From: Magnetococcales bacterium
GTDB taxonomy: Bacteria; Pseudomonadota; Magnetococcia; Magnetococcales; JADFWU01
Direction of reading: 5' to 3'
Assembly: GCA_015234045.1 (NCBI GenBank)
Contig: JADFWU010000038.1
Coordinates: forward strand, 1 to 30,015
DNA: 30,015 nucleotides
Positions 9,154-26,510 of the stretch are shown piece by piece; position 1 is the stretch's first letter, and each line of letters begins with the position of its first letter. A program made the position numbers and the translations under genes. The notes below the pieces were generated by a model. It worked only from the letters and a program-made list of their open reading frames with translations. It had not been told where the DNA came from and did not search any database.

Positions 9154-9729
9154 AAAAAGGTTTGGGCTGAATATGGCAGATATCGTGCGACTCCCTTTTC
9201 TGTGTTGGATTTGGGTCGCATTAATGATTCAGATCTATCACGTGATGATTTGTTAAGAGGTGGATTCTTAGCATTGAAATGCGTTTTTCAAGCGGAGCTT
9301 TCGGTTGATGTGGTCGCTTCAATTGGTCAAGCGCTTCATGGTGATACAGAGCTTGCTCAACGTGCGTTGTTGTATCTGATTCAGACTTGTGAGGATTTTG
9401 ATATGAGTAGTGTTCAGGCATTTACGGAAGAAGCCTTTCCTGGTGAAACAGAACAGTATGCGTCTCAATTTGCTAGAGAAATGATCGAGAAAGGGCTTCA
9501 GAAAGGACTTCAAAAAGGGCTTCAAAAAGGGCTTCAAAAAGGGCTTCAAAAAGGCCATCAGGAAGGTGAGTCGGCATTTCTGCTGAGACAGCTTCAGCGT
9601 CGGTTTGGGGTTTTGTCAGATTCGGTTGTTGAACAGGTCAAATGTGCGGATCTTGCTGCTCTTGAGTTGTGGGGAGATCGGGTGCTTGATGCGCGGTCGT
9701 TGGATGACGTTTTTTTGGATGAAGCGTGA
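9154..9729 (+). pseudogene. N-terminally truncated Rpn/DUF4351-type nuclease gene
   Basis: The open frame begins right after the chemoreceptor stop, and no normal start is seen; a GTG at 9202 gives 175 residues. The product matches only the C-terminal part of Rpn-family (YhgA-like, PD-(D/E)XK) proteins. It starts at the L-D-L-G-R-I-N-D-S-D-L segment, then L-A-L-K-C-V-F. After a K-G-L-Q repeat comes a DUF4351-like tail (L-L-R-Q-L-Q-R-R-F-G-V-L). The roughly 150-residue nuclease core expected at the N-terminus is missing. Residues upstream of 9202 (E-Y-G-R-Y-R-A-T-P-F-S-V) stay in frame and family-like, so the break lies very near 9154. This is a deletion remnant. It might still be translated by read-through or coupling from the chemoreceptor gene. 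Confidence 0.7.
9490..9561 (+). repeat. 12-bp tandem repeat coding KGLQ
   Basis: Six consecutive 12-bp units (AAAGGGCTTCAA and close variants) lie inside the Rpn remnant and code K-G-L-Q or a variant each time. Such expandable helix repeats are common in the linker of Rpn/DUF4351 proteins. Confidence 0.9.
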
Positions 9730-9765
9730 GATTTGGTTTGAGTTTGTTGTGAGGTGATGGTGTCG

Positions 9766-11064
9766 ATGAATACATCTGTTGAGAAAACATTACTGTATAG
9801 ATTGGATCATCTACCTGCTGGTTGGGCGTTGTTGATGGGGGTGATGGTTGGTGTGTTGGGCGGTGCGGTTTTGCTGTGGTTGTGGCCGGAGTGGGGCTGG
9901 ATAGGTTATGTGGTGTTGTTGGGGCTTGCCGTGGTGTTGGCTTGGACGGGTAAGCCGGTGGTGAAGCGTGAACGCCGTGCGATTGATGTGCCAGAGCAGG
10001 GTGTTGAAGAAGTGAGTACGCCGGATGAGCAGGAAATAGTAGGAGAGCTACCAGCAGAAACAGTGCCGGACATACCAGAGCCTGACATACCAGAGCCCGA
10101 TATACCAGAGTCTAACGCTGATACTCAACCAATAGAGCCTGAAGCCAGTCAGGAATCAGAAGAGCCACAGAACACACCAAAAACCGAGCCAATTGATCAG
10201 GATGTGGCTGAAAAATCACCGAAAAAGATGTCTCTGGCGACTCGGGCTTATCTGCCCAAAACGGATGAAGAAAAAGCCGCATTCAATACCATCCATAAAG
10301 CACCGCACAGGCCTTTGGATGAGTTTGTTGAGATTCCTGCTGGGCGCTTCATGATGGGAAGCCCGGATTCGGACGATTTGGCTCGTGATAATGAAAAACC
10401 TCAACGTGATGTCACAATCTCCTCACTCAGTTGCATGCGCTATCCAGTGACCCGAAAGCTTTATCAAGAGGTGATAGGCAAGGTCTCTGACCATTGGGAT
10501 GATCAAGCAAAGGAGAACTGGCCAATAACGGAAATAAGTTGGTTGGAGGCAGTGATATTCTGTAATCAGTGGTCTGAGCGGGTGGGGTTGACACCCTGTT
10601 ATGAGCAACAGAGTAAACAGATTATATGGCATCGTAGAGCAGATGGCATCCGGTTACCGACAGAAGCGGAGTGGGAATATCTGTGTCGAGCTGGAACAGA
10701 GACTCCGTGGTTTTTTGGTGAAACTGATGATCTGGGTAAGGAGTATGCTTGGTTTGAAGATAACTCAGAAAATCGGCCACATGCTGTGGGCACCCGAAAG
10801 GCCAATCCTTGGGGGTTGTATGATTTATCAGGCAATGTGTTTGAATGGTGCTGGGATCGATATGGTGACTATTCCAAGGAGTCACAGGAGAATCCGGTCG
10901 GCCTGGAGGCAGGTGATGTGCGCGTGATTCGCGGCGGCTCTTTTTTGTTCTGGTCCGGGAGCCTGCGCTCTGCGGACCGGGTCAGGGTCGAGCCCGTGAA
11001 CCGGGTCAGGTTCCTTGGTTTTCGTTGTGTTCGCGGCGCGTCTCCCGCCAGCCTTGATCATTGA
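9766..11064 (+). CDS. Membrane-anchored FGE-sulfatase/C-type-lectin-fold protein, probable DGR target
   Basis: 432 residues from the ATG at 9766, with GAGGTG 9 nt upstream; in-frame GTG 9754 and ATG 9757 are alternatives. Two hydrophobic segments (about 20-40 and 44-60) anchor the N-terminus. A Pro/Glu-rich linker follows, with a D-I-P-E-P repeat. From about residue 186 comes a formylglycine-generating-enzyme (SUMF) domain: E-I-P-A-G-R-F-M-M-G-S-P, R-L-P-T-E-A-E-W-E-Y, P-W-G-L-Y-D-L-S-G-N-V-F-E-W, R-V-I-R-G-G-S-F and G-F-R-C-V-R-G. This fold is the usual ligand-binding scaffold varied by DGRs. No sulfatase gene is nearby, so a binding role is more likely than catalysis. The last 48 codons hold the variable region shared with the convergent gene. 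It is probably a second sensor of the adjacent MoxR system. Confidence 0.85.
   Translation: MNTSVEKTLLYRLDHLPAGWALLMGVMVGVLGGAVLLWLWPEWGWIGYVVLLGLAVVLAWTGKPVVKRERRAIDVPEQGVEEVSTPDEQEIVGELPAETVPDIPEPDIPEPDIPESNADTQPIEPEASQESEEPQNTPKTEPIDQDVAEKSPKKMSLATRAYLPKTDEEKAAFNTIHKAPHRPLDEFVEIPAGRFMMGSPDSDDLARDNEKPQRDVTISSLSCMRYPVTRKLYQEVIGKVSDHWDDQAKENWPITEISWLEAVIFCNQWSERVGLTPCYEQQSKQIIWHRRADGIRLPTEAEWEYLCRAGTETPWFFGETDDLGKEYAWFEDNSENRPHAVGTRKANPWGLYDLSGNVFEWCWDRYGDYSKESQENPVGLEAGDVRVIRGGSFLFWSGSLRSADRVRVEPVNRVRFLGFRCVRGASPASLDH
10069..10110 (+). repeat. 15-bp tandem repeat coding DIPEP
   Basis: About 2.8 copies of a 15-bp unit code D-I-P-E-P in the linker between the membrane segments and the FGE domain. 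It likely forms an extended stalk. Confidence 0.85.
10921..11057 (+). repeat. Putative DGR variable region 1
   Basis: This 137-bp segment is repeated in inverted orientation at 11353-11489. The left 27 nt (10921-10947) and the right 50 nt (11008-11057) are identical in the two copies. The 60-nt core between them (10948-11007) has 13 differences, 12 of them at codon positions 1 or 2. Seven of the 13 sites carry A in one copy. This is what adenine-directed mutagenesis of a template rich in AAC codons would give. The constant 3' part would be the homing-initiation (IMH-like) end. It ends 7 nt before the end of the gene. Confidence 0.72.
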
Positions 11065-11081: not shown

Positions 11082-11106
11082 CGCCGCGCAGCGGCGAGAT
11101 TTTTAT
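11082..11106 (+). terminator. Hairpin with GCA triloop plus T-run after variable region 1
   Basis: CGCCGC (11082-11087), loop GCA, GCGGCG (11091-11096), then GAGATTTTTA. It can serve as a rho-independent terminator for the FGE gene. Its place, 24 nt after the variable region, also matches the hairpin/cruciform that stimulates DGR homing. Confidence 0.6.
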
Positions 11107-11111
11107 TGGGT

Positions 11112-11129
11112 AAGTGACAATTGTCACTT
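11112..11129. promoter_or_regulatory. Perfect 18-bp palindrome
   Basis: AAGTGACAATTGTCACTT is a perfect inverted repeat between the two convergent FGE genes. The half-site TTGTCAC recurs at about 11184. It could be a protein-binding site or part of the recombination-prone 3' region; function unknown. Confidence 0.4.
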
Positions 11130-11306
11130 TATTGGTCGTGATTGCACCAATATTTGTAGTTTTTGGTAGTTTTTTGGTGTTTTGTTGTCACCCATTGTGT
11201 CACAAGGTGAGTAATAGGCCGCGATAGGATTTTAAGGTTTGACAAAATAGTACCAAAATGGTCGTTTTTTGTCATGTGTTTGTGTTTTTTTGTCTTTATT
11301 AAGTAC

Positions 11307-11332
11307 CAAAAAAAATCTACCCGCTTCGCGGG
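11307..11332 (-). terminator. Hairpin with GAA triloop plus T-run after variable region 2
   Basis: Read on the minus strand: CCCGC, loop GAA, GCGGG (11332-11320), then TAGA and a long T-run (to about 11307). It is a good rho-independent terminator for the conflict operon. It is the counterpart of the hairpin at 11082, 20 nt after the second variable region. Both hairpins are preceded by TTGATCTTTT. Confidence 0.65.
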
Positions 11333-11345
11333 AAAAGATCAATAA

Positions 11346-14123
11346 TCAAGAGTCAAGGCTGGCGGGAGACGCGCCGCGAACACAACGAAAACCAAGGAAC
11401 CTGAACCGGTCCCCGGGCTCGTACCAGTCCCGGTCCGCTGAGCGCAGGTACCCGGACCCGGCCAAAAAAGAGCCGCCGCGAATCACGCGGCGCAAGCCAG
11501 TCTTAGGCCCTGTGGGATTGGTTTGCTCTTTAGCAGGATAAGTGTCATACCAATCCGAGTTCCATTCCCAGGCATTGCCATGCAAATCATACAGCCCCCA
11601 TGGATTGGGGCGCATGGAACCAACAGTTAATAAGGAATCTGAATTTTGCTTGTTGTAATTAGCGTATTGATCCAGCTGGCTCTCATCCTCACCAAAAGAC
11701 CAGCGTGATTGTGTCCCGGCCCGAGTAGCGTATTCCCATTCTGCCTCGGTGGGCAGTCGATAACCCAATGAGCGACAATATCCATCAGCATCATTCCAGG
11801 ATACGTTTATCACAGGAAGGTCATCTTCACCCTTATGATCTGGATGAACCAGACGGTATTGGGCATTGGTGGTCTCATATTTTGCCATATCGAAGGCGGA
11901 AAGAGTCACTTTGTGTACTGGGCCTTCATTGGAGTTTCGACCTTTTTCATTTTCTGGTGAGCCCATCTTGAACGACCCAGCACAGAGTCGGATAAAAGGA
12001 ATGCCGTTATTGTCCTTATACTCACTATGAGGGCAGAATAGAGATGTCCATAGGTAGGTGTCATAAAAAATAAAATAACCGCCAGAAATAGCCAGCCAGA
12101 GTGTGATGCCAATGGAGAACCAAACACGCCCTGGTGATTTTGTTGAGTAGTTTACGCCTGGATCTCCACCAAAGCCCATTGTCAACAGCATCGCTTTTTC
12201 CGCATCGGTGCGGTCATCTAACTGCCAGGGTAGTCGTATTAAATCGGATGAAGTGGCGTGTTGGTCAGAATAGGGTTTGATACGTTTCTTGATCAGTTCG
12301 CGTAATTGATCAGATTTGTTTGAAGGCTCTTGGTCGAACAGTGTGAAAAGGGCAGGGATGGCTTTTTCTGGTGCGAGCCAAAGGGTGAGTAGGACCTGCT
12401 CAACGGTGAGCCGATGATAGGCCAGGCTGTTTTTTTCCGGGCTCTCCTCTGTTTTTCTAATTTGTCTTTCAAACGCTGTTAGCCAATAGTTCAGCGCTTT
12501 GTTCAGAACTGTGTCTTCATGAAGCGTGTCTGACGGATCAACTTGTTGATAAAAACTCAACCAATCCAGAAGCTCTTGTCTCTGAGTGTCGGTAAATATC
12601 ACTGCGTCGGTGCTGGATTTAGCATAGTGGAACAGATGGCGGTAATGGCTACTTGGACAGCTGATTTTGAGTTCTTTGTGCAGTGCTAATGCTTGGGATT
12701 CCAAAACAGGCAGAGGAGACAGCGCACATGTGGCGGCCCAAAGTTTAATTACATTTTTATCTTCAATCCGTGCTGGCTGTGTACGGCTCTGACCCAAAAC
12801 AGCAGGCAGCTGATCCGCTGTAATCAGCGCTAATTGAAAAGGCTCAATAACTGTCTTTAACGCGCGGCTGTCGGTCAAGTCTGTCACAAACCAAAGACGA
12901 GGAAAAGACGATAACATCCGTAAAATGGCATTAAAACGCACAGAGTTCCTATCAGAACGCTGATATTGAGCGCTCAAAAGCTCACCATCGGTAAGCAGGA
13001 GCATAATCAATCCATTACGTTGCTCTTCCAGATCGCTAAGAATAAAACGTGCTTGAGCGTTGTCGGTAAACTGATCCGGCTTGATCCAGAAAAAGGCGGT
13101 CTCAACCGGTAAATTAGCTCTGAGCAGTGCGGTTTCAACTTCTTGGGCCAGACGCTCCAGTGTAGGGCTTTGGCAGGCTTTATCCAATAGAATCCACACC
13201 GTGCGGTGATAACGGGCTGGTTGAAAAACCAGGTTCAATAAACCGCCATCCTGAGCGGTTTTCTCAACTGTGGCATCTATATCAATTGTCTGAGTTGCTT
13301 CTTCAGCTGTAAATGTATCAATGCCCCAAACAATCAACTCTTCATTGGTATGATCCAGAAAAATAAGCTCTTTTGATTCCCATGCAGGTAAATAAGGTTC
13401 CGTTGCGCCCTCATTAAACAAAAGCGGTTCAGAAGGCTGAAGTAGTCGCCTTCTAAGTGGGAAAAGAAACATCAAGATCAATATAATAAAAGCAGAAGCT
13501 GCAATGGCAGGATAGGGATGATTGATAGTGCGAATAACCGTTGGTGGTGCGTTGTTGGATGGATCTTTGATGCTTGTTTCATCTGTTAGCTTTAAAAGTT
13601 GTTTGAAATCTTGATTGCTTTTCTGGAATATTTCATCCTGCATCAACGGACGTGGTGGTGAGGGCGTGAATTCAATTTGCTCTGGAATAATTGCCGCAAA
13701 AACAATGATGATTAGGAAAAGTGAATAGGCCAGCAATAGCCACAACACTCTTTCCCAGGTAATAAAGGATTTTTTTTGAATGGGGCTGTTGGTGTCAAAG
13801 GATCTGGTAGCGTGCTGTTGATCAGGTGTGCCTGAAGGGTGATCCGTGGTCGGAAATAATTTTGATTTGTTATTAAGGGTGATGTTGTCTAACCACTGAT
13901 CAAACAATCGATTAAACAGTTTTCTCTTCTCATCCGAGCGCACCAGAATAGAGGATAGAATGGCCTTGATCTGTGCAATGGTTGGCGCATCGCTCTCTGA
14001 CTGAGCGATTTTCTGAAACACCGCATGAATCCGCAACGTCTCCTGAATGCCGATATCCAGACCACCATGGCGTAATCCAGTTAGTAGCGAATCCAGCGAA
14101 GGTGTTTCACGTAACATCGACAT
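11346..14123 (-). CDS. vWA-like, membrane-spanning, FGE/C-type-lectin-fold sensor of a MoxR conflict system
   Basis: 925 residues from the ATG at 14123, which overlaps the MoxR stop in TGATG; the longer frame to 14249 begins at TTG inside MoxR. Residues 1-80 resemble the helical N-terminus of CoxE-type vWA proteins. TM1 lies at about 126-147 and TM2 at 205-223. A vWA-like domain starts near 308, but its metal site is degenerate (W-I-L-L-D-K-A-C-Q-S in place of DxSxS). A helical region follows, then TM3 (about 668-690). The C-terminal FGE domain (about 700-925) has R-L-P-T-E-A-E-W-E-Y, N-P-W-G-L-Y-D-L-H-G-N-A-W-E-W and R-V-I-R-G-G-S-F. The variable region codes residues about 887-907. Topology suggests the FGE domain is on one side of the membrane and the vWA part, facing MoxR, on the other. 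Inferred role: ligand sensing coupled to the ATPase. Confidence 0.85.
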   Translation of the reverse strand: MSMLRETPSLDSLLTGLRHGGLDIGIQETLRIHAVFQKIAQSESDAPTIAQIKAILSSILVRSDEKRKLFNRLFDQWLDNITLNNKSKLFPTTDHPSGTPDQQHATRSFDTNSPIQKKSFITWERVLWLLLAYSLFLIIIVFAAIIPEQIEFTPSPPRPLMQDEIFQKSNQDFKQLLKLTDETSIKDPSNNAPPTVIRTINHPYPAIAASAFIILILMFLFPLRRRLLQPSEPLLFNEGATEPYLPAWESKELIFLDHTNEELIVWGIDTFTAEEATQTIDIDATVEKTAQDGGLLNLVFQPARYHRTVWILLDKACQSPTLERLAQEVETALLRANLPVETAFFWIKPDQFTDNAQARFILSDLEEQRNGLIMLLLTDGELLSAQYQRSDRNSVRFNAILRMLSSFPRLWFVTDLTDSRALKTVIEPFQLALITADQLPAVLGQSRTQPARIEDKNVIKLWAATCALSPLPVLESQALALHKELKISCPSSHYRHLFHYAKSSTDAVIFTDTQRQELLDWLSFYQQVDPSDTLHEDTVLNKALNYWLTAFERQIRKTEESPEKNSLAYHRLTVEQVLLTLWLAPEKAIPALFTLFDQEPSNKSDQLRELIKKRIKPYSDQHATSSDLIRLPWQLDDRTDAEKAMLLTMGFGGDPGVNYSTKSPGRVWFSIGITLWLAISGGYFIFYDTYLWTSLFCPHSEYKDNNGIPFIRLCAGSFKMGSPENEKGRNSNEGPVHKVTLSAFDMAKYETTNAQYRLVHPDHKGEDDLPVINVSWNDADGYCRSLGYRLPTEAEWEYATRAGTQSRWSFGEDESQLDQYANYNKQNSDSLLTVGSMRPNPWGLYDLHGNAWEWNSDWYDTYPAKEQTNPTGPKTGLRRVIRGGSFLAGSGYLRSADRDWYEPGDRFRFLGFRCVRGASPASLDS
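11353..11489 (-). repeat. Putative DGR variable region 2
   Basis: Inverted copy of 10921-11057, at the 3' end of the 925-residue protein gene. The constant flanks are 11463-11489 (27 nt) and 11353-11402 (50 nt), and the variable core is 11403-11462. Encoded differences from copy 1 include F-W to A-G, S to Y, V-R-V to D-W-Y, V-N to G-D, and V to F. Confidence 0.72.
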
Positions 14124-15055
14124 CAACCGAGTATCTCGTAATCGTCCCGATCCTTGATCAGTGTGTTTAAAGCGGGTAGGTCTGAGAGTGGGCAGTGTGA
14201 AATATGGTTGAGATCGGTGTATTGCATGGCAGAAAGTGCTGTCAGCCAAACAAGTAATTCAGCGGTTGCTGGACGTTTTCGAAGCTCTACGGACCGCAAC
14301 TCTAAAAATCGCGTGGTTGCCGCGTCTCGGATCTCAACGGACAGGTTGGGAAAATCACCAATCCGTGCCTCTACAGCTTTTCTAACCAGATCATCAGAAA
14401 AGGTGATGTAATGAAAAATGCACCGCCTGAGAAATGCCTCAGGCAACCGGCGTTCACTGTTGCTGGTTATGATGACAATTGGCGGTGGCGCGTCTTTGCG
14501 AGAGATATCATCATCCAATTCATCCACTCGAAAAGTGTGCTGATCCAATACGTTCAGTAGATCATTGGGAAAATCACGGGATGCCTTGTCAATCTCATCC
14601 AACAGCACAACCGATGGATCGCTCTGTTCAAACGCTTTCCACAGTGGTCCTTGTCGAATAAAATTATTCATATCATCAATGTCTTGCTTAGGATCTTGCG
14701 CCGCATGAAGGTAGGCCACAGTATCAAACCGATATTGTAGATCACTGGCGGTTGTGGTGCTTTTAACAAACAACGGAAACAATTCAATACCAAAAAAACT
14801 TGCCAGATAGTAGGCCAACTGCGTCTTGCCTGTTCCAGGCTCACCGGTCAGCAAAAGAGGAGCGCCCACTGTTAAGGCAACATTCACCGCTTCCAATAGA
14901 TCAGGATCAGGATGATAAAACTCAGCCCCTTTTTCAAGACTGCCAAGCGAAGAAGGAATATCACGGGTCGCAAGCAGTGTTTTACGGGTGGCCTGATCGC
15001 GTTCAGCATCAAGAAGGTTGAAAACAGATTTATTGGTGTCAGTCATCGTTACCAT
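14123..15055 (-). CDS. MoxR-family AAA+ ATPase
   Basis: 310 residues. Walker A G-E-P-G-T-G-K-T (71-78), Walker B V-V-L-L-D-E-I-D (149-156), sensor-1 Asn near 199, and the paired Arg of F-L-R-R-C near 210 as candidate arginine finger. The MoxR-type lid follows. MoxR ATPases remodel proteins together with vWA-domain partners. Here the partner is the next gene, whose start overlaps this stop (TGATG). Its own start overlaps the end of the upstream gene by 7 nt, so all three genes are translationally coupled. An alternative start is the ATG at 15046. Place and coupling point to the motor of a ternary conflict system, not to a metal-insertion role such as methanol dehydrogenase maturation. Confidence 0.93.
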
Positions 15056-16965
15056 GTCCCGCGTTTGGGTCTATTGGGTTCGAGCTCACCTTTCATATGA
15101 GAACGTAGAGCATACCATCCACTGTTAACGCCTTTGTTCAGTAAAACGATTAACTGCTGAAAAACACCGCCATTTGATTTCTGATACAAAAGGTCTCTTG
15201 TCTCCGTCAAAATATTTGCTGGACATGAAATGTGTCTAAGGAAATCAAGTAGTTCACGCTTTGGAACCTTGCCAACCGGACTGCTCAGTTTTTTATACCA
15301 GAATGCAGGGTCTGTGAAATTGTCATCAAGTTTCTCCAGAAAACTGTCAACATTTGAGATGTGTTTGGGAGCTACTTCCATGGAAGCAAAGCAGATTACT
15401 TTCACGGAACGCGGACAGAATGGTGTGAGCGTATTGTGAGCATGACTGAGCCAGTCAGAAATTTCATCAGCTTTAATCTGATGTTTTAACTGTGGATTGT
15501 TATGACCAAATGCGCCCATATCCAACCAGATAATCCGTTGTCTGCCCGGAGGTGCTTCGGGTGCGGCACGAGTGAGAATGGAATCCCATGGCTCATTGCT
15601 TTCTGCGCCAAGAGCTCTGCGTAGGGCTTGTTCCAAATCAGGTATTAGGTTGATACGTATATCTGGAAAATCGACGTTGATTTTCTTGATGGCAATACTG
15701 TTGGCGAGCACTTCAGATGTGTTGAGAAAGTGAATCAACTGATCACTGAGAATCTCAATCATATTGTCTGGTGCGGCAAATGGCAATAACGCCATCACCC
15801 TTGCTCTGGAGTCGCCTAACAGCTCAGAGATCCATTTGAGCATGTGGCTTTTAATGCCATCCCGATCCAATATCATTTCCAATTTGATTGGCACCTGTTG
15901 TTGCCCAGGTACACGGGATGACTCTGGCGGAATGTAGGGAAATGTTTGAAAGATGATGCGATGAGATAAGCAGACAAGTGAATCTGCTGTCGTTGAAGGA
16001 TAGCTCTTGCAAGATTCGTGAAAGGCGGTAATTGGTGATTTTGTGTTGTGTAACCAGTTATGGAAAAAGCTCAATGCAATATTGTTTTTTGCGTCATCCT
16101 CGGTTGAGATAATGTTTCTAACCACAAAAGGTGTGCGTTTGGAAAATTCTTTAGATGGGTCCAGGTTGAGCGGCAATGCACCGCTGCTGTTCATATAGAT
16201 GACCGCTGGAGGATGTTTTAGTTTTTCTATATCCGTTTGAAATGCCGACCATGGATATTCAGAGCCGTCTGAATTCCTGAGTAGAATATCTCTATTGTCT
16301 GAATCGTTTTGCTGCGTATCGATATAAATAATAGTCGGAGGTTTATCCTCAAGAGCTTGTCTGATGTCGTTCTTTGAAAGGGCGATGGACAGCCAAGACT
16401 CTTCCTTATCGCCCCAAACCTCTTTTAATGCACCAGTAAATTGGGCAGAGTGGCTGGCTGACTTTGTACCAGTAAAGATGGCTAACAATCCACTTCGTGG
16501 TTGTATGGTCTTTGACTCGGTTTGTGTGATATCTCGATCAAAAGCTGTTGTAATCTGCCACCCTTCTTTAACAAGGGAAAAATTTTTCCATCGCATTAGT
16601 CGCCAAGGCAAAGCAATATACTCTGGAAGGTCAGATATGATTTTTAAGGAGATTGGCTTTGAGACAGGGGTTTGATTTTCTATAAGATCGCCATGGACCA
16701 CTCTGAGAACTTCTTCGATTTTGAGTCCATTGCCAAAGAGAAAAGAAAACAGTTTTGAACCAATTTCTCCGTTGTCCTGGAATGGTTCAGGATCACCAGT
16801 ATTTATACTGTTGTGAAGATCGAGAAAGGTATTCTTTTTTGGAATGAATATGAAATTGAATCGCGATGATACCAAAGGCAAATAATATTCCAGTAGAATC
16901 TGGGTGCCTTGTAGAGAGATCTTAACTTCCAGCTCAAATACATAAGGACTTGCACTGCTGCTCAT
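15049..16965 (-). CDS. Degenerate CHAT-like protein of the conflict operon
   Basis: 638 residues, ATG at 16965 with AGAGGT 10 nt upstream. No clean family match from reading alone. Residues about 60-325 follow the CHAT (caspase-like) layout. [11 protein letters not shown] (113-123) stands for the usual LPWELL. A strand I-I-Y-I-D-T-Q sits where the catalytic His is expected, and V-I-Y-M-N-S-S-G-A (255-263) where the catalytic Cys is expected; the pair is not conserved. The helix after I-S-T-E-D-D-A-K matches the CHAT end. The C-terminal half (about 345-620) has Rossmann-like strands, including [10 protein letters not shown], and could be the inactive NTPase-like module reported in ternary conflict systems. 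It is the first gene of the operon. Probable roles are adaptor or effector control; certainty is low. Confidence 0.6.
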
Positions 16966-19616: not shown

Positions 19617-19760
19617 GGTTGGCAAGCCTTATTCAGGGCGTTTAGGGCCACGGCAAAAATTAATCATCCCAGTCGCACAGGGTATTGATTCGTCCGCAAG
19701 GCGCAGAAAGGAGCGTGTGCTGATTATAAGCCGACTGTTGAACATTTGCCAACGGTGTCA

Positions 19761-19925
19761 ATATAGTTCTTTCGTCTAAAATTTGAACAGTCAAACGTTC
19801 CAGCCGTGGTGATGTTTTTGCTCTGATGATCTGCTTCGCATGTTAAAAGCGGCGCAAAAACATCGCCAGGGCTTCCATTCAGGTTGTGATTCATTGTCTA
19901 ATTTTGGACCGAAACAACGATATCA
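19761..19925 (+). mobile_element. MITE-like repeat, copy 1 (full length)
   Basis: About 165 bp. The left end (ATATAGTTCTTTCGTC) is an imperfect inverted copy of the right end (reverse complement TGATATCGTTGTTTCGGTCC), followed in both by AAAATT and GACA-like sequence. Inside, a near-perfect 17-bp inverted repeat (GTGGTGATGTTTTTGC against GCAAAAACATCGCCAGG) forms a long hairpin. No transposase frame is present. The same sequence recurs near 26309 and, internally deleted, near 27618. Its right end supplies the stop codon of the pseudouridine synthase gene. Confidence 0.75.
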
Positions 19926-26242: not shown

Positions 26243-26308
26243 ATGGTGCGGTTGCAGAGTATATGGTGCGTTACTAATTGATCGTCATATGATTGTTTGT
26301 TGGTTGAA

Positions 26309-26471
26309 TATAGTGAATTCGTCTAAAATTTGAACAGTCAGCCGTTCCAGCCCTGGTGATGTTTTTGTTCTGATGATCTGCTTCGCATATCAAAAGCGGC
26401 GCAAAAACATCACCAGGGCTTCCACTCAGGTTGTGATTCATTGTTAAATTTTGGATCGAAATAACGCTATC
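26309..26471 (+). mobile_element. MITE-like repeat, copy 2, with extra 3' half
   Basis: Full-length copy of the repeat at 19761. Its internal hairpin is perfect (CCCTGGTGATGTTTTTG against CAAAAACATCACCAGGG). It is followed directly, to about 26523, by a second, diverged copy of only the right-hand part (ATCACCAGGGTTTCCACTCA and onward). Same orientation as the other copies. The extra part carries the probable ribosome site and start codon of the GT-B gene. Confidence 0.75.
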
Positions 26472-26510
26472 ACCAGGGTTTCCACTCAGGTTGGGAGGTA
26501 TTGTCTGATT

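Follow-up and report, generated by a model that had tools for sequence, protein, structure and literature searches.

Two convergent genes in a Magnetococcales genome, each encoding a C-terminal FGE-sulfatase domain, end in DGR-like variable regions (VR1 and VR2), and just beyond each gene lies a short hairpin closed around a GNA triloop. The question raised by this locus is whether these hairpins belong to the target-site hairpin/cruciform elements known from DGRs, or are terminators, dispersed repeats or remnants. The window, by which we mean the whole stretch of DNA that was analyzed, is contig C49 in full, 30,015 bases long; the assembly it comes from has 117 contigs totalling 3.65 Mb and is 93% complete. 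Table 1 gives the coordinates of the features.

Table 1. Features at and around the converging 3' ends of the two target genes
Feature	Position	Strand	Remarks
Target gene 1, C-terminal FGE-sulfatase domain	9754..11064	+	436 aa; PF03781 E 4e-46
VR1	10921..11052	+	Differences from VR2 at 10948-11005; 5' limit approximate
Constant 3' end of VR1, IMH-like part	11006..11057	+	Terminates in ...CCCGCCAGCCTTGA; same in VR2
Hairpin 1, CGCCGC-GCA-GCGGCG	11082..11096	+	6 bp; sense-strand GCA triloop
T-run past hairpin 1	11100..11104	+	3 nt from stem
Inter-hairpin DNA	11097..11319	.	Six TGACA/TGTCA words; resembles both outer ends of the core cassette of relatives
T-run past hairpin 2	11308..11315	-	4 nt from stem
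Hairpin 2, CCCGC-GAA-GCGGG	11332-11320	-	5 bp; sense-strand GAA triloop
Constant 3' end of VR2, IMH-like part	11353..11404	-	Identical to 11006-11057
VR2	11358..11489	-	Differences from VR1 at 11405-11462; 5' limit approximate
Target gene 2, C-terminal FGE-sulfatase domain	11346..14249	-	967 aa; PF03781 E 6.3e-52

Ahead of the stop region, the final 137 bases of the two targets are inverted copies of each other that differ at 13 positions. All 13 fall in 10948-11005, the next 52 bases being identical, and 12 of them are at codon positions 1 or 2 (7 at the first, 5 at the second, 1 at the third). At most of the positions matching these differences the TR of related genomes carries AAC/AAT-type codons, and similarity between VR and TR in those genomes stops near GCCAGC. 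Judged from sequence, the pattern resembles that of two DGR variable regions. Elsewhere in the window, tandem repeats of GGGCTTCAAAAA type lie at 9480-9560 within a DUF4351 gene immediately upstream of target gene 1, and a 166-nt direct repeat, 90% identical, occurs in copies 6.5 kb apart (19760-19925 and 26307-26472), and shorter related copies begin at 26469 and 27644.

The initial annotation had described two hairpins 20-24 nt downstream of the variable regions, each preceded by TTGATCTTTT and followed by a T-run (AGATTTTT and TAGATTTTTTTT), and all of this was confirmed in the sequence. The spacers are 24 and 20 nt when counted from the last base shared by the variable regions (CTTGA) and 29 and 25 nt when counted from GCCAGC, and they hold TTGAT words. 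Both stems consist entirely of G-C pairs. Mini-hairpins of the d(GCGNAGC) class are very stable, and folding of the two elements as single-stranded DNA gave -8.2 kcal/mol (z = -2.1) for hairpin 1 and -5.5 kcal/mol (z = -2.7) for hairpin 2. To place them in a genomic background we used 430 kb of the host genome (860 kb of strand). GCGNAGC words occur there 146 times on both strands, and only in hairpins 1 and 2 is the word enclosed by a stem of 5 bp or longer; across 66 kb of intergenic sequence there are three triloop hairpins with at least five G-C pairs, hairpins 1 and 2 among them. Because no other GCGNAGC-cored hairpin with such a stem is found in the 430 kb, the pair are unlikely to be ordinary terminators or repeats. 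Rfam yielded no match at the gathering threshold; a match to MIR8007, seen when E values up to 1 were admitted, scores below that threshold, spans the VR1/VR2 inverted repeat and was discarded as a fold-back artefact.

It had been proposed that the stems differ while place and loop type are the same, and that this points to selection on structure. The shared placement and the GNA loop type stand, but the difference between the stems was overstated. The hairpins align as homologues within a 189-nt, 86%-identical match, in which the five inner pairs show one compensatory swap (G-C against C-G), the middle loop base differs, and hairpin 2 has T/T where the outer sixth pair of hairpin 1 stands. 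Since the two are homologous and differ by one swapped pair, the case they make by themselves for selection on structure is thin, and it is the differing stems of the relatives described below, still paired, that argue for it.

A DGR reverse transcriptase (RT) query matched 19 of 48 same-order genomes, the weaker matches possibly being other RT types. Twin targets were found in five of these genomes (G003, G040, G043, G044 and G045; loci L153, L154, L187, L189 and L190), in the order VR-bearing target 1 (+), hairpin, TGACA/TGTCA array, HTH gene, bAvd-like gene, TR, RT, a second array, a second hairpin, and VR-bearing target 2 (-); L187 and L190 have the core inverted. Pfam searches of L189, the locus of G044, identified bAvd (PF22296, E 3.5e-11, above the cut-off) and RVT_1, with HTH_17 below the cut-off. 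The window shares the convergent layout of these loci, with the gap shrunk to 223 nt. The TGACA/TGTCA arrays, often AAAGTGACAA / TTGTCACTTT, flank the core on both sides in L154, L187, L189 and L190. They adjoin the gene with the weak HTH_17 match and may be candidate binding sites of its product.

A hairpin is present after all ten VRs of the five twin relatives, 39-45 nt past GCCAGC. The stems, 8-11 bp long, occupy the equivalent position and are paired in sequences other than those of the window stems. Their loops are GAA (2), GCA (1), GTA (3) and CTTG (4), so the expectation of a fixed GNA loop across FGE copies is borne out in part: GNA is common (6 of 10) but not fixed. The whole genomes of four of these relatives (G003, G043, G044 and G045) were searched for the stem pattern CCAGGGGGC...GCCCCCTGG; beyond the VR ends there were no further copies in G003, G044 and G045, and one extra copy, with a different loop, in G043. 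The tails past the hairpins are TTTTGCAAAATG, CTTTGCAAAATG, ACTTGCAAAATG or TCGCTCAAAATG, and the T-run is not conserved.

How general is this arrangement? We collected TR/VR pairs by self-alignment, accepting those with mismatches concentrated at TR adenines, and scored the best sense-strand hairpin against a fixed cut-off beside 90 non-redundant VRs (57 viral, 20 other cellular, 13 same-order); cellular DGRs of Spirochaetota and Bacteroidota lie outside this sample. A sense-strand GNA or GRNA loop follows 51 of the 90 VRs, and neither loop type occurred in any of the 90 matched TR flanks or on the antisense strand of any of the 90 VR flanks. Shuffled sequences produced GNA loops in 0.19% and GRNA loops in 0.08% of cases, about 0.3% jointly. 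GRNA loops were found after 38 of the 57 viral VRs, 3 of the 20 other cellular ones and none of the 13 from the same order; for GNA the counts were 1 of 57, 4 of 20 and 5 of 13. All 41 GRNA hairpins and seven of the ten GNA hairpins are closed by C-G, the other three by G-C. Among eleven GNA hairpins four of six stem pairs are altered on both sides, which illustrates rather than tests pairing because these hairpins were chosen for their GC-GNA-GC core. Of the general evidence that these hairpins are DGR target marks, the difference between VR and TR flanks is the strongest. GGA-triloop hairpins, some G-C closed, also follow the VRs of three DGRs in genomes from another class (L277, L279 and L282).

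The initial annotation had held that copies with an intact variable region and no hairpin would speak against its view. Such copies exist among DGRs at large, since a GNA or GRNA hairpin is lacking after several VRs from DGRs of the order; in the twin family all ten VRs have a hairpin. The proposal that the hairpins act in DGR homing is otherwise supported by the DGR-like differences between VR1 and VR2, by the uniqueness of the hairpins in 430 kb and by the equivalently placed hairpins of relatives.

Hairpins of this kind have been studied in phage BPP-1, where a hairpin/cruciform just beyond the VR is required for efficient homing, with stem pairing needed, stem sequence free and the loop critical; removing at least 2 bp of the stem sharply lowered activity (PMC3240598). 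The DGRs of phages are described there as having GC-rich stems of 7-10 bp and a GRNA tetraloop 4-34 bp from the VR. The window hairpins resemble these elements (Guo et al. 2011, PMC3240598) in being sense-strand inverted repeats soon after a VR, with GC-rich stems of varying sequence, a loop of G..A form and a flexible distance. They depart from the phage consensus in stem length (6 and 5 bp here, 8-11 bp in relatives) and in having GNA triloops, including a middle pyrimidine (GCA here, GTA in relatives), instead of GRNA tetraloops. The shorter stems count against a DGR reading. Because stem and loop miss a consensus that was drawn from phages only, we claim membership of the broader class of target-site hairpins. 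According to Guo et al., most chromosomal DGRs have hairpins too, in data left unpublished (PMC3240598). The DUSEL4 DGRs of Nanoarchaeota (Paul et al. 2015, PMC4372165) likewise have a triloop hairpin with G..A loop ends beside the VR, but the loops described there are GRA only and inside the target gene, whereas the loops here are GNA, beyond the stop codon and in a bacterium. The available portions of the literature on DGR hairpins contain no bacterial GNA triloop with a middle pyrimidine. The best explanation is that the elements are of a known kind, the DGR target-site hairpin/cruciform, in a GNA-triloop form.

By analogy with the BPP-1 experiments, the hairpins, standing just beyond the constant 3' end (IMH), would mark the VR, not the TR, as the recipient in mutagenic retrohoming. 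Under negative supercoiling or transient single-strandedness the GC-GNA-GC core would fold on the coding strand and nucleate a GC-rich hairpin or cruciform, which could keep the adjacent IMH open or recruit the homing machinery. Mutated cDNA made from the TR could then integrate upstream.

The targets also resemble the NTPase-linked FGE targets of DGR-diversified NTPase/vWA conflict systems (Kaur et al. 2020, PMC7159879; PMC10907252). TIR or NACHT is joined to FGE in the examined targets of G044 and G003, and from their domains the twin-DGR targets with TIR and/or NACHT look like diversified conflict receptors. In the window a MoxR-like AAA ATPase gene follows target gene 2, together with a 638-aa gene (14123-16965, minus strand); the latter has no Pfam or NCBIfam match, and the three genes possibly constitute one conflict-system operon. 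Unlike the published systems, the family to which the window belongs has two convergent targets that enclose an HTH-bAvd-TR-RT core. PMC10907252 nowhere uses the words hairpin, cruciform or stem-loop.

That core is missing from the window. The 223-nt gap contains neither HTH, bAvd, TR nor RT. It does contain six TGACA/TGTCA words against 0.39 expected, a number that none of 2000 shuffles reached, and these take forms such as AAGTGACAATTGTCACTTTA, resembling the arrays that border the relatives' cores on either side. The DGR RT query found no match in this genome at E <= 1e-10 (assembly 93% complete). The sole PF00078 (RVT_1) reverse transcriptase of the assembly, on contig C43, was considered as a DGR RT and dropped: its sequence reads as the group II intron type and the query did not match it. 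The HTH protein of the relatives' cores was not found in this genome, and no third VR-like copy was detected in it up to E 10, hence no TR was found in the assembly. The simplest reading is that a core once present between the twin targets was deleted, or is absent from the assembly.

A second genome of the order, G042, offers a comparison for targets in this state. It was reached by a DNA search with the window VRs, which across the order returned short matches only, one of them leading to an orphan FGE family of G042. G042 lacks the HTH of the twin core and has several FGE ends of the same type as those of the window: one (L294) has an intact hairpin, CCAGGGGC-GAA-GCCCCTGG, three (L291, L292 and L293) have hairpins that are recognisably eroded as judged by eye, and the remaining ends have no hairpin. 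A match of 22 exact bases on contig C139 of G042 was set aside, as it sits between unrelated genes. DNA searches of phages gave no match, and those of plasmids gave two partial FGE matches.

Could the hairpins be nothing but intrinsic terminators of the convergent genes, alike through duplication of the gene ends? Both are G+C-rich, stand just beyond convergent stop codons with T-runs after them, and are picked by a terminator scan. However, the T-runs begin 3-4 nt past the stem, farther than is usual for terminators, the relatives do not conserve them, and no further intergenic GNA hairpin of this kind occurs in 430 kb, so that this is not the genome's terminator type. Termination would also leave the contrast between VR and TR flanks unexplained, and as a sole function we regard it as improbable. 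An additional terminator role, which had been suggested earlier, is possible; it does not account for the placement. That a dispersed palindromic repeat of REP or MITE type happens to have copies at both gene ends is more improbable by far. The hairpins are short palindromes and some DGR loci are reported to carry MITE-like repeats (PMC10907252), but there are two copies in 430 kb here, and four relatives, searched genome-wide, have 2-3 copies of the matching stem, all but one after VRs. These copy numbers refute the idea, barring many copies in the unsampled part of the genome.

The reading that deserves most weight beside our own holds that the hairpins are non-functional relics of a working twin DGR whose core was deleted, with decay still to come. 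We give this somewhat less than an even chance. It fits the absence of the core genes and TR from the assembly, the gap with its repeat words, the eroding hairpins of the orphan FGE ends in G042, and the targets without core genes on record in T. denticola (PMC4891356). Yet both hairpins of the window are perfect and both target reading frames open; RT and TR may sit on missing contigs, as the assembly is 93% complete; and diversification in trans has been described for Thiohalocapsa PB-PSB1 (PMC10907252), which likewise has RT-less loci, with RT genes replaced by repeats. Since the assembly shows no DGR RT, no TR and no HTH gene, and the hairpins are just 223 nt apart, present activity is uncertain, and the perfect hairpins imply that core loss was recent, that an RT acts in trans, or that the hairpins have another use. 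Decay of this kind bears on present activity and not on the identity of the elements. That they are target-site hairpin/cruciform elements of a twin-target DGR, in GNA-triloop form, we hold to be likely; the two genes, for which the assembly shows no core, may be orphan targets.

The finding extends the DGR target-site hairpin beyond the GRNA tetraloops of phages: bacterial chromosomes have GNA triloops, GCA and GTA among them, an extension backed by the clear contrast between VR and TR flanks across 90 targets. Triloops and tetraloops share their G..A ends, and the role of the loop thereby becomes testable. The hairpin is also a possible marker of orphan DGR targets, those that have lost their RT or have it at another place. 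We suggest, tentatively and with more doubt than confidence, that in the chromosomal DGRs of bacteria a G..A loop closed by G-C (GNA or GRNA) is what separates recipient from template, being kept with the core and eroding after its loss. If so, an intact or decayed hairpin would tell whether diversification of an orphan target in trans continues.
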